64,000 nucleotides of DNA, from positions 62,001 to 126,000 of the forward strand of contig CAJXNP010000013.1 of the NCBI GenBank assembly GCA_913057175.1, read 5' to 3'. Source of the DNA: an uncultured Cytophagales bacterium. Lineage in GTDB: Bacteria > Bacteroidota > Bacteroidia > Cytophagales > Cyclobacteriaceae. Every line of letters begins with the position of its first letter. Position 1 is the stretch's first letter. Positions 17,781-25,177 of this stretch are shown here, piece after piece. The position numbers and the translations under genes are program-made. The notes beneath the pieces are model-generated. The model did not search any database. It was not told where the DNA came from and saw only the letters and a program-made list of their open reading frames with translations.

Positions 17781-18068
17781 ATGACCGGAGGACTAGGATT
17801 TACAAAATTCGGACAAGCTTTACAGCGGGTAAACCGAAGTTTTTTAAAGCATACCAGAAAAGTAAAGCAAAAGAAAGATGATTTAATCTATCGAAGAAGC
17901 TTAAGGAGATATGAATTTAAAAAATCCAGCAAAAAGGGGCTTGAAGCCACCAAGACCAGGATATTGAAACAAAGAAGACGGGAGATCATCAAATCGACCA
18001 TTATCCTGATCGCAACCTTCATTCTTATTGGGGTGATCTATCTGCTGCTAAGAAAATATATTATCTGA
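17781..18068 (+). CDS. small, very basic single-span membrane protein, unknown
   Basis: A 95-residue protein. Residues 1-67 are extremely rich in Lys and Arg (for example RKVKQKKDDLIYRRSLRRYEFKK and ILKQRRRE) and predicted helical. Residues 70-90 form one membrane helix (STIILIATFILIGVIYLLL), with a short basic end. No family is recognised. The basic part could bind nucleic acid or acidic lipid at the membrane. It is not in the hip operon, because a hairpin with a T run and three operator-like repeats separate them. Confidence 0.6.
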   Translation: MTGGLGFTKFGQALQRVNRSFLKHTRKVKQKKDDLIYRRSLRRYEFKKSSKKGLEATKTRILKQRRREIIKSTIILIATFILIGVIYLLLRKYII

Positions 18069-18170: not shown

Positions 18171-18272
18171 TTTATATTATAACTAATATAATGTACTAAT
18201 TTTCATCTTATTTATATTATAACTAATATAATTATGTATATTTAAGGAATATTTATATTATTTCTACTATAA
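18171..18272 (+). promoter_or_regulatory. three operator-like repeats upstream of hipB
   Basis: Two identical 20-base elements, TTATATTATAACTAATATAA, start at 18172 and 18212. Each is an inverted repeat (TATATTA-taac-TAATATA). A third copy, TTATATTATTTCTACTATAA (17 of 20 identical), starts at 18253 and ends three bases before the hipB ATG. Spacing is 40 and 41 bases, close to four helical turns, so all three lie on the same face of the DNA. They are probably HipB (or HipBST) operators for autorepression. Confidence 0.75.
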
Positions 18273-18274
18273 AA

Positions 18275-18481
18275 ATGGATAGGGATTTAATAAGATTTGT
18301 AAAAATGATGCGGAAACAGTTCGGACTTACCCAGGTAGAATGCGCCAAAAAAGCAGGAGTGGGGCTCATGTTTATCAGGGATCTTGAACAAGGAAAAAAA
18401 TCGTTGAGAATGGATAAGGTAAACCAGGTGCTCCAGTTGTTTGGTGCAGAACTGGGAGTAATAAGACAAAATGAAAAATAG
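18275..18481 (+). CDS. hipB: HipB-like helix-turn-helix antitoxin/regulator
   Basis: A 68-residue Xre-type DNA-binding protein. The helix-turn-helix is LTQVECAKKAGVGLMFIRDLEQG, and the C-terminal strand LQLFGAELGVI is the HipB dimerisation strand. It is the first gene of a hipB-hipS-hipT operon, whose stop codon directly touches the next ATG (TAGATG). Expected role is to bind the three upstream repeats and to take part in holding the toxin inactive. Confidence 0.88.
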   Translation: MDRDLIRFVKMMRKQFGLTQVECAKKAGVGLMFIRDLEQGKKSLRMDKVNQVLQLFGAELGVIRQNEK

Positions 18482-18802
18482 ATGAAGGGTGTCGTTTTTT
18501 ATCGAGAAATAAGAGCGGGTGTAATAGAACAAACTGATGAAGGATATACTTTTCAATATGACAAAGAATACCTGAAAAGAGAAAATACAAAACCAATAAG
18601 CCAGACGCTTCCTTTGCGAAATGAGGAATATAGCAGCAAGGTGTTATTCCCTTTTTTTGATGGGCTGATACCGGAAGGCTGGTTGCTGGATGTAGCGATT
18701 GAAACCTGGAAAATTGATTCCAGGGATAGAATGAGGCTTTTGCTGAAGGTATGCAGGGATTGCGTAGGAGCTGTTAAAGTTTTACAGGAAAATGAAGAAT
18801 AG
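18482..18802 (+). CDS. hipS: HipS-like protein (HipA N-terminal subdomain as separate gene)
   Basis: A 106-residue protein equal to the HipA N-terminal subdomain 1. It has GVIEQTDEGYTFQYDKEYL, then ISQTLPLRNEEYSS, FFDGLIPEGWLL and the end DCVGAVKVL. In classical two-gene hipBA systems this part is fused to the kinase. Here it is encoded alone, as in the HipBST system of enteropathogenic E. coli, where HipS is the antitoxin. It overlaps the next gene by 11 bases. Confidence 0.85.
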   Translation: MKGVVFYREIRAGVIEQTDEGYTFQYDKEYLKRENTKPISQTLPLRNEEYSSKVLFPFFDGLIPEGWLLDVAIETWKIDSRDRMRLLLKVCRDCVGAVKVLQENEE

Positions 18803-19721
18803 ATGTCTAATTTGTTATCAGGAAAATCCGGATGAGGGAAGACACTATCATCCGAAGTGCAGTAAGCTAATATTCGGTTTCGAAGAGCCACCGGAACTAC
18901 CCTATCATTTGGCAGAGATGAAAGAATTGGCAAAGAAAATTGTCATGAGTCAGGAAATTGTTACTGGGGTGCAACCAAAAATTTCTCTGGGAATTGAGAA
19001 TACCAAAAAGAAAAAGGGAAGATTGACCATCATGAGCGGGGAATATATTTTAAAACCTCCCAACGAGAGGTTTGAGGAAATGCCGGAAACGGAAGATCTC
19101 ACCATGCATCTTGCCCAGATCTGCGACATAGAAACGGTTCCCCATGCTCTTGTTCCTCTAGCCAGTGGGGAATTGGCTTACATTACCAGGAGAATAGACA
19201 GAACTGGTGGTAGGAAAACCCATATGGAAGATTTATGTCAGCTAAGCGAATTATTGACAGAAAATAAATACAACTCCAGCGTCGAACGGGTCGGGAAGCT
19301 GATTGATCAATATAGCAGTTATCCGGGATTGGATAAGATCAATCTCTTCGAGCTTACGCTTTTTAATTTTGTCACAGGAAATAATGACATGCACCTGAAG
19401 AACTACAGTCTGATCGACGATCAACGTGGTTGGCACATGTCGCAGGCCTATGATCTTCTTAATGTAAATATCATTCACCCCATCGACACAGAAGAAACTG
19501 CCCTGACCATCAACGGTAAGAAAAGAGGACTTATCAGGACCGATTTTGAAGCATTGGCAAATAATTTTGGGCTAACAGAAGTGCAGATAAGGAATGCCTT
19601 TAATAAAATTATTTCCAAACAAAACGAAATGCTGGACTTTATTGGGATAAGCTTCCTTTCCATGGGTCTGAAAGCGGCCTTTCATGCCCTTTTGGAGGAA
19701 AGAATAATCAGATTGGAATAA
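18792..19721 (+). CDS. hipT: HipT-like serine/threonine kinase toxin (HipA C-terminal domain)
   Basis: A 309-residue HipA-type kinase without the N-terminal subdomain. The catalytic elements are present: the glycine/serine loop GVQPKISLG (Ser65), the catalytic loop GNNDMHLKNYSL (Asp199, Asn204) and the metal-binding AYDLLN (Asp221). The N-terminus carries a small putative zinc knuckle, C5-x2-C8 and H20-x2-C23. E. coli HipT phosphorylates tryptophanyl-tRNA synthetase; the target here is unknown. In that toxin two serines of an SxS motif are autophosphorylated; here the second position appears to be Gly67, which may change control. Confidence 0.87.
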   Translation: MKNRCLICYQENPDEGRHYHPKCSKLIFGFEEPPELPYHLAEMKELAKKIVMSQEIVTGVQPKISLGIENTKKKKGRLTIMSGEYILKPPNERFEEMPETEDLTMHLAQICDIETVPHALVPLASGELAYITRRIDRTGGRKTHMEDLCQLSELLTENKYNSSVERVGKLIDQYSSYPGLDKINLFELTLFNFVTGNNDMHLKNYSLIDDQRGWHMSQAYDLLNVNIIHPIDTEETALTINGKKRGLIRTDFEALANNFGLTEVQIRNAFNKIISKQNEMLDFIGISFLSMGLKAAFHALLEERIIRLE

Positions 19722-22761: not shown

Positions 22762-23880
22762 TCAAAGCCATTTTTTCTTTCTGAAATAGAAGATCATCCC
22801 AACTAGCACAAATAGCATAATCCCCAAAACAATAAAATAGCCATATTTCATGTGAAGCTCTGGCATAAAATCAAAGTTCATCCCATAAACACCGGCAATA
22901 AAAGACAGGGGGATAAATATGGTCGCCACCAACGTTAAAACTTTCATAGTTTCGTTCATTTTTTGACTTAGCGCAGAAAAATAGATGTTGGATAAGCTAT
23001 CCAGGCCCTGGTAAAGAAAATCGACCTCTTCAATCGCATTGGAGCAGGTGTTTTGAAGGTCGCGGAAATACTTCATGTTTTCCGGTTGAATAAAGTTGGT
23101 CTTCTCGTTCAGGATCTTGTTGAGTGCTTCCCGGAGGGGGAGGAGAGATTTTTTGATGATACCGGTGGTTTTTTTCTTTTCTTCCAGCTTCAGCAAGGTA
23201 TGCTGTTTGGGGTCATTAAATGTTTCACCTTCGATGACTTCCATTTCATCATTTACCGTTTCGATCGTTTCAAAGTGGTTGTCCAGGATGGCGTCCAGCA
23301 AAAGGTACAGCAAAAAGTCACTTCCTTTTTTCCGAACAATTCCCAGGTTTTCCCGAATCCTGTGGCGGATGTGGCCAAAGTGATCACCGACTTTTTCCTG
23401 GAAGGAGATGAGGTAGCCGTTGCCCAGCACAAAGGATAGTTGTTCAATTTCAATTTCACCGTGATTGGTCTCTTTTTCCAGGATAGATTTAATACTAAAA
23501 AAAAGATAGTGTGGGTATTCTTCAACCTTTGGCCGCTGGGTGGTGTCGACAATTTGTCTCACGGTAAATTTGTCTAGGTCAAGTATTTTACCAACATTCT
23601 CAAAAAGTTCTACTTCATGAATTCCATGAAAATTGAGCCAATAGACTCTTTGTGGATTTAGATCATTTAATGACTGGTATTCGTTAAAGTCATCGACTTC
23701 ATTTAATTTATTCTCATCGTATTCAAATAACTGGGATTGAACTTCTTCAATTACCTTCTTTCCGATAAAAGAAATTTTGGCGTCCTTTTTTGTGCCACTT
23801 TTTATTTTGGAATACAACTTCCTGTTTAACCGCGTGACGGACCGAAGGCCGCTTTTTATAATTTTTTCAGCTTCTGTCAT
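22762..23880 (-). CDS. corA: CorA family magnesium/cobalt channel
   Basis: A 372-residue CorA protein. A large N-terminal cytoplasmic domain, with VYWLNFHGIHEVELFENVG and a long charged stalk helix, precedes two C-terminal membrane helices. The signature YGMNF lies in AGVYGMNFDFMPE, between the helices, and a basic tail (RKKKW) ends the protein. It forms a pentameric Mg2+ channel in the inner membrane. It is a single gene, convergent with mscS. Confidence 0.95.
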   Translation of the reverse strand: MTEAEKIIKSGLRSVTRLNRKLYSKIKSGTKKDAKISFIGKKVIEEVQSQLFEYDENKLNEVDDFNEYQSLNDLNPQRVYWLNFHGIHEVELFENVGKILDLDKFTVRQIVDTTQRPKVEEYPHYLFFSIKSILEKETNHGEIEIEQLSFVLGNGYLISFQEKVGDHFGHIRHRIRENLGIVRKKGSDFLLYLLLDAILDNHFETIETVNDEMEVIEGETFNDPKQHTLLKLEEKKKTTGIIKKSLLPLREALNKILNEKTNFIQPENMKYFRDLQNTCSNAIEEVDFLYQGLDSLSNIYFSALSQKMNETMKVLTLVATIFIPLSFIAGVYGMNFDFMPELHMKYGYFIVLGIMLFVLVGMIFYFRKKKWL

Positions 23881-24115
23881 AGAAATTCATTTTCTAATTA
23901 ATAAAAGTAGAAGTAGTCATTAAAGGTGTTTTGACAAAATAATGATTTCACAATATCCAAAAATTTAACAACATCCAAACTTTTCCTGATGGTTTCAATT
24001 GAGTCGTTGAAACTAATGGTTGACCATCAATCCAAATATTTCTTTTTTACTATTTTTAAACTTTATATCATCCAATACATAAAAAAGTACTGACCATTAA
24101 CCGTTCTGCTGATCC

Positions 24116-25177
24116 ATGACAAATCATTCCAACAAATACAATTTCAAAGACCTGATACAATTTTCCACCGGTTTGATGACTGCCTCTGGATTATCAGAGG
24201 AGCGTGCGGTTGTTGTTGCTGAAACCCTCGTGGAGGCTGATTTGATGGGTCATTTCACACATGGTTTGCAACTACTTGTTCCGTATGTAAGTGAATTACT
24301 GAAGGATGATATGACGAAGACCGGCGATCCGATTATCATTCACGACAAAGGTAGCTCCTTAGCCTGGGATGGCAACTATTTACCAGGACCCTGGTTAGTG
24401 AAAAGAGCCATACAGCATGGAATCGAAAGGGTAAAGGAACACGCTGTTTTTACTTCAACAATTCAAAAATCCCATCATATTGGTTGTCTGGCGGCTTATC
24501 CTGAAATGGCCACGAAACAGGGGTTGGTGATGCTTCTATCCTGTTCAGATCCAAGAAATAAAACGGTCGCTCCTTTCGGAGGACTTGAAGGTGTTTATAG
24601 TCCAAATCCGATAGCTGCAGGATTTCCCACAGAAACAGATCCTATCATTTTTGATATCAGCATGTCAACCACAGCCAATGGACTGATTATGAAATTAAAT
24701 AAGGAAAATAAAAAATTACCACACAAGTGGTTGCTGGATGGACAAGGAGAACAAACCGATGATCCTGGTGAGTTTTTTAAAGATCCTCCTGCCACGATTC
24801 TTCCTCTAGGTTCCATCGATACTGGTTATAAAGGTTTTGCCTTGGGCATCCTTGTTGAGGCGTTAACCAGTGCATTAGGAGGGAGCGGTCGTGCAGATCA
24901 ACCTGGCCGTTGGGGAGCGTCAGTCTTCTTGCAAATCATTGATCCGGAAGCCTTTGGAGGGTTGAATTACTTCAAAAGGGAAATGCAACATTTAATGGAT
25001 GCCTCTTTAAAATGCAAACCCCATAATCCTGATAATCCGGTAAGAATTCCAGGACAACGAGCACTGAAACTTCGCGAATTAAGGAAAAAAGAAGGTGTGC
25101 CACTGAGCGATTCAATAGTGGATGGGATGGAGAAAATGAGTAAGGATTTAGGTGTTGAGATGCCGGCGATTGTTTAA
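24116..25177 (+). CDS. Ldh family NAD(P)H-dependent oxidoreductase
   Basis: A 353-residue member of the malate/L-lactate (YiaK/ComC) dehydrogenase family, which reduces 2-oxo acids with NAD(P)H using an unusual fold unrelated to classical lactate dehydrogenase. Typical segments are DLMGHFTHGLQLLVPYV (catalytic His region), KSHHIGCLAAY, VAPFGGLEGVYSPNPIAAGFPT and GYKGFALGILVEALTSALGG. Substrate cannot be told from sequence. It stands alone but lies near a sugar-acid type dehydratase. Confidence 0.9.
   Translation: MTNHSNKYNFKDLIQFSTGLMTASGLSEERAVVVAETLVEADLMGHFTHGLQLLVPYVSELLKDDMTKTGDPIIIHDKGSSLAWDGNYLPGPWLVKRAIQHGIERVKEHAVFTSTIQKSHHIGCLAAYPEMATKQGLVMLLSCSDPRNKTVAPFGGLEGVYSPNPIAAGFPTETDPIIFDISMSTTANGLIMKLNKENKKLPHKWLLDGQGEQTDDPGEFFKDPPATILPLGSIDTGYKGFALGILVEALTSALGGSGRADQPGRWGASVFLQIIDPEAFGGLNYFKREMQHLMDASLKCKPHNPDNPVRIPGQRALKLRELRKKEGVPLSDSIVDGMEKMSKDLGVEMPAIV

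Follow-up and report, generated by a model that had tools for sequence, protein, structure and literature searches.

A complete hipBST operon lies on the forward strand of the window, by which we mean the whole 64,000-nucleotide stretch of DNA analysed here, from an uncultured Cytophagales bacterium. It is a real, well-preserved HipBST module and belongs to a large Bacteroidota clade. Very probably, it is a chromosomal tripartite toxin-antitoxin operon in which HipS is the antidote and HipB is the repressor.

The window encodes a split HipA in a three-gene operon

The first gene, hipB (18275-18481, +), encodes a 68-aa HTH repressor, for which the nearest solved structure is HipB of Legionella pneumophila, HipB(Lp). 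It is followed by hipS (18482-18802, +), encoding a 106-aa detached HipA N-subdomain that is the presumed antitoxin, and by hipT (18792-19721, +), encoding a 309-aa HipA-type Ser/Thr kinase that is the presumed toxin. The order is that of HipBST, and the genes touch or overlap: the hipB/hipS junction is 0 bases, and hipS and hipT overlap by 11 bases. Profile searches matched HipB to the HTH protein family couple_hipB of NCBIfam (1.3e-21), HipS to Couple_hipA of Pfam, the HipA N-subdomain (1.4e-27), and HipT to HipA_C, the kinase part (3.5e-42). HipS is thus homologous to N-subdomain 1 of HipA, which HipT lacks, and the single fused HipA of HipBA systems is not found here. An earlier note on this DNA had described a HipA split into a 106-residue N-subdomain and a separate kinase, with junctions of 0 and 11 bases; the profiles and the gene coordinates agree with it, and its assignment to a HipBST-like family was correct, all three proteins matching HipBST both by profile and by structure. 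Just 5' of the operators described below, an ORF of 95 aa (17781-18068, +), strongly basic and with a single hydrophobic segment at its C-terminal end, gave only a sub-threshold SecE match in a profile search.

For comparative analysis we used approximately 160 relatives overall, with final clade counts based on 143 kinases and 141 promoters. Four loci that had first been put in the clade by their loop letters (L192, L193, L195 and L204) have the N-termini of other clades and were excluded from these counts.

The closest characterised relative is the HipBST of Legionella

The HipBST system of L. pneumophila (lpg2368-70; PDB 7vkb, 8ezr and 8ezt; PMC9325769, PMC10653801) is alike in gene order and sizes and gave each of the three window proteins its top match in sequence and in fold. 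In sequence comparisons, HipT matched Legionella HipT (9e-47) better than E. coli HipT (6e-11) and Shewanella HipA (5e-6), and the top counterparts of HipS and HipB were likewise from Legionella. An AlphaFold2 model of HipT (pLDDT 87) gave a TM score of 0.92 against HipT(Lp), 0.83-0.85 against E. coli HipT and mostly 0.65-0.72 against HipA. The HipBST of E. coli O127:H6 (PDB 7ab3-7ab5; PMC6581861, PMC10627512) shares the split kinase and the Glu-Gly-Trp plug of HipS, but its kinase is distant, carries a double serine loop that is absent from the window, and is encoded without Legionella-type operator motifs (PMC10653801). Thus, the likeness to E. coli HipBST proposed in the earlier note holds for the E. 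coli-type tryptophan of HipS, while the closest characterised relative is of the Legionella type. The HipBA system of E. coli K-12 also combines an HTH repressor, a HipA-fold kinase and several upstream operators; however, its HipA is fused, its four TATCC-N8-GGATA operators are spaced at 28, 39 and 28, and its HipB is the antitoxin.

The genome of the window contains a second complete hipBST (L002, contig C22, approximately 23450-24358), with two operator-like repeats 61 bp apart. It has the same three-gene order and differs from the window system in its SISGVQ loop, degenerate knuckle, valine at the position of the HipS tryptophan, and the pitch and letters of its operators.

HipS and the proposed mechanism of control

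HipS contains the motif E65-G-W67 (18674-18682, +), the counterpart of E63-G-W65 in E. coli HipS, HipS(Ec). Glu65 is present in 143/143 and Trp67 in 141/143 members of the clade, and none of the HipS partners of SIQ or SIS kinases has this tryptophan. HipS(Lp) has Ile/Met in its place, and the position is not used there. Because E-G-W is conserved in the clade, and the W65A substitution abolishes the function of HipS(Ec), the tryptophan plug is expected to neutralise HipT.

By analogy with the characterised systems, HipT would be a toxin and HipS its antitoxin. HipS would bind HipT and place Trp67 at the Gly-rich loop, thereby keeping the loop from closing on ATP. HipB would not neutralise HipT; as dimers on the three 18-bp operators, it would repress transcription of the operon and recruit both HipT and HipS, forming a larger complex on the DNA. 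Control would run mainly via HipS, because the serine at which E. coli HipT autophosphorylates is missing from the loop of this kinase. In Legionella, HipT(Lp) is neutralised by HipS alone and not by HipB. HipB(Lp) bound to three evenly spaced operators carries HipT and HipS in gel shift experiments (PMC10653801). HipT(Lp) shows no toxicity in E. coli, and its target differs from the known ones; its toxicity and target therefore cannot be carried over to the clade.

It could be argued instead that HipB is the real antitoxin, as it is in HipBA (PMC8262856), and that HipS is only a structural subunit; direct binding of HipB(Lp) by HipT(Lp) (PMC10653801) would suit this arrangement. Since Legionella HipB alone does not neutralise the kinase, and Trp67 of HipS is kept almost throughout the clade, we consider this improbable. 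It seems similarly improbable that HipT is a domesticated regulatory kinase without toxicity, and that the operon signals or regulates without arresting growth. The operon does occupy a chromosomal site between what read, by sequence, as housekeeping genes, one membrane dipeptidase-like and one ilvD-like, but its distribution is patchy: any match was found in 80/195 genomes of the order, and a full-length kinase in fewer. Five genomes of the same family lack the system, as expected of a toxin-antitoxin module, and relatives occur on viral contigs. HipS as antidote and HipB as repressor thus remains our preferred reading.

The split of the kinase is old

A scan of GTDB for kinase relatives returned at least 588, of which the best 80 were mostly from Bacteroidota and also from Cloacimonadota, Ignavibacteria, Chlorobiota and others. 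The arrangement hipB-hipS-hipT was present in 103/110 loci, the remaining seven lacking a detected neighbour, and a fused kinase was found in none of the 110. A tree that also held fused HipA proteins of the same order set the split kinases apart from the fused ones, in three groups; support was good for the SIS group, the SIQ group and the bulk of the group that contains the window's kinase, with weak deepest branches and long fused-HipA rows. The same-order fused HipA proteins are distant from HipT, with a SAGGARxK loop and approximately 430 aa. Sequence, structure match and the tree, weak as its deepest branches are, all put the kinase nearer to HipT than to the fused HipA proteins.

Because no fused relative was found among the 110 loci and the kinase groups with split kinases, the system is, as judged from these comparisons, an old HipBST and not a freshly broken HipA. 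The opposite reading, that this is an ordinary two-gene hipBA in which hipA was recently split by mutation, draws on the fact that HipS and HipT together make up one HipA and are encoded by overlapping genes. The phylogeny that the earlier note had suggested as a check on this point gave no sign of a recent split: with 0/110 fused loci, the position of the kinase in the tree, the distance of the same-order fused HipA and HipT rather than HipA as the nearest structures, we rule it out. The surprise that the note attached to a HipBST in a Bacteroidota chromosome is not warranted, as homologues of HipBST(Lp) are widespread in the FCB superphylum (Lin et al. 2023, PMC10653801).

Several related modules were seen among the relatives. 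Seven viral contigs from IMG/VR (L135-L141) carry kinase relatives, at least three of them in a full hipB-hipS-hipT; these may be phage genes or prophage flanks. In genome G194 (contig C2, 143169-145989; L023, L115), a hipBST of the clade has a SAGGAR-group kinase of the HipA type at a distance of approximately 1.4 kb, a pairing reminiscent of the HipBST and HipBA neighbours already published from Bacteroides.

The HipT loop lacks serine and the N-terminal knuckle is intact

The Gly-rich loop and the catalytic and Mg motifs of a HipA-type kinase are intact in HipT. The catalytic motif reads N197-N-D199-M-H201-L-K-N204 (19380-19403, +), and the catalytic and Mg-binding residues are invariant across 27 relatives. 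The P-loop, I56-V57-T58-G59-V60-Q61 (18957-18974, +), is flexible and of low confidence in the model. It has no serine at either autophosphorylation site (the S57 and S59 positions of HipT), and Ile56 aligns with the serine position of HipT(Lp). The earlier note had counted one serine in the loop; the aligned motif reads Ile-Val-Thr, and S53 lies outside it. Neither the SxS double serine that marks the Gly-rich loop of the E. coli subtype nor the S[VI]Q loop of the Legionella subtype (SVQ in Legionella itself) is therefore present. Serine-poor Gly-rich loops of the types T[IV][TP] and PsiPsiT are known among HipT kinases (Baerentsen et al. 2023, PMC10627512), and the IVT of the window fits PsiPsiT; those groups concern the loop only, were drawn from 48 kinases, and come without a description of the knuckle, the operators or the HipB code.

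In the 143 kinases of the clade, the first loop position is T in 69, A in 48, S in 17, I in 2, V in 1 and C in 1, with 5 unread. Because serine is rare at this position (17/143), these alignments indicate that loop autophosphorylation cannot be the general control in the clade. Consistent with this, the S54A variant of HipT(Lp) remains toxic.

Residues C5-C8-H20-C23 at the N-terminus of HipT (18804-18860, +) form a CxxC...HxxC knuckle, a presumed metal site. Its ligands are kept in 143/143 kinases of the clade and are lost in Legionella HipT. The same N-terminal segment reads CPITY...YSxxG in SIQ kinases and CPGTL...YSxxC in most SIS kinases, and some SIS kinases retain CxxC...CxxC. Thus, the knuckle reported in the earlier note is present, but it is not an extra element: it is the ordinary HipT N-terminus, a segment whose ligands have been lost in other clades. 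Four apparent absences (L052, L059, L089 and L090) were artefacts of ORF starts set too far upstream. The simplest reading of these sequences is that the knuckle is an ancestral, putatively metal-binding site that has degraded in the characterised lineages. We found nothing on a zinc site in HipT in the literature, which is no proof of novelty.

Three operators precede hipB at a clade-specific pitch

Three unstranded operators of 18 bp lie upstream of hipB. The distal copy, TATATTATAACTAATATA (18173-18190), is palindromic at 7/9 positions. The middle copy (18213-18230) is identical to it over 18 bp and lies 40 bp further on, and the proximal copy, TATATTATTTCTACTATA (18254-18271), is 41 bp on from there and 15/18 identical, with the hipB ATG 3 bases after it. 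The earlier note gave these spacings and the 3-base gap correctly; its term 'near-identical' was generous for the third copy. Three evenly spaced 18-bp operators, with 53-bp gaps, have already been published for hipB of Legionella (PMC10653801), so the phased array is less of a surprise than was implied. The gaps in the window are 22 and 23 bp, giving a pitch of 40/41 in contrast to 71 (18+53) in Legionella, and the operator letters also differ.

The best internal repeat lag was 39-42 bp in 108/141 clade promoters, or 130/141 counting double spacing. The corresponding numbers were 11/137 and 13/137 downstream of hipT, and 15/141 and 34/141 inside hipT; among shuffles, 7% had such a lag at single spacing. 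Three-copy arrays made up 63 of the first 92 and four-copy arrays 18; the 197 spacings included 97 of 40 and 92 of 41. Although the G+C content of the region is 28% and the copies consist almost entirely of A/T, the chance that the repeats are a mere product of A/T-rich DNA is negligible and was ruled out, as the repeat was stronger than in any shuffle and its spacing recurs in relatives with other operator letters (TATACCC....GGGTATA) and is absent from the control stretches.

The promoter repeats were 60-62 bp apart in 6/9 promoters of the SIS clade and 70-71 bp apart, the 18+53 of Legionella, in 7/12 of the SIQ/SIA clade, both small samples. Each HipT clade thus appears to have its own operator pitch, approximately 40/41 here, 61 in SIS and 71 in Legionella-like systems, with small SIS and SIQ samples. 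Periods of 40.5, 61 and 71 would correspond to about 4, 6 and 7 turns of approximately 10.15 bp, which suggests helical phasing. Cooperative repression by a large complex, as the note proposed, is plausible; the Legionella study described possible intermediate occupancy, in contrast to the cooperativity of E. coli HipB (PMC10653801). Loci L189-L198 and L032, with SIQ/SIA kinases, are Legionella-type hipBST modules in Bacteroidota, and their promoters mostly have repeats 70-71 bp apart that are TTACCGC....GCAGTAA-like, at the Legionella pitch; the kinases of L192, L193 and L195 have a SIA loop, not SIQ or SVQ.

Within the genome, the exact operator is confined to the operon of the window. A search of the genome for a wider regulon brought up a single additional site, which differed at two positions; the control gave the same number. 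A promoter and terminator scan, of a kind that does not cover Bacteroidota promoters, gave nothing above shuffles.

HipB residue 32 tracks the operator letters

Operators in most of the clade read TATACCC....GGGTATA, and those of a second lineage TATATGY; TATATTA was found only in the window and one relative (L034, Bacteroidetes bacterium OLB12). Met32 of HipB (18368-18370, +) sits at the position whose residue varies with operator bases 5-6 throughout the family: Arg occurs with CC in 87/88 cases, Thr with T- in 27/27 and Met with TTA in 2/2. This table was made before the reassignment of L192, L193, L195 and L204, three of which are possibly among the Arg rows. The single Arg32 HipB without a CC operator (L180, TATATCA) possibly represents a fourth operator class.

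Among all HipB positions, residue 32 had the highest mutual information with operator bases 5 and 6, and, judged against other HTH_3 proteins, we take it to fall within the recognition helix. Adjoining positions co-vary almost equally, because the operator classes coincide with lineages. On the tree, residue 32 requires only three changes, and no more than two independent pairs were on supported branches; both went as expected (sign test p = 0.5). A code linking residue 32 to the operator is therefore a good hypothesis, not proven. The literature yielded nothing on such a code, an absence that does not establish novelty.

Implications for the HipBST family

In the literature searched, we found no earlier description of a clade-specific operator pitch, of the match between HipB residue 32 and the operator letters, or of an ancestral knuckle. 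A more ambitious interpretation, speculative and doubtful as a whole, would join three proposals. In the first, the knuckle would have a function in HipT, either structural or as a sensor of redox state or zinc, and would go back to the ancestor of the split kinases, with loss in both studied clades. In the second, each clade would hold to its pitch (approximately 40, 61 and 71 bp, or some 4, 6 and 7 turns of the helix) since adjacent HipB-HipS-HipT complexes would have to come together on the same side of the DNA. In the third, HipB residue 32 would dictate the operator letters and thereby keep systems that share a cell from regulating one another.

In the literature found, HipBST has been studied in E. 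coli and Legionella, both of which lack the presumed metal ligands that a large clade has kept. In this clade, the position of the P-loop serine is often occupied by Ala, Ile or Val, which makes its members well suited to testing the role of this serine. The clade also provides a repressor-operator code that can be put to the test (Arg32/CC, Thr32/T- and Met32/TTA), and one cell with two hipBST systems that differ in operator letters and pitch.
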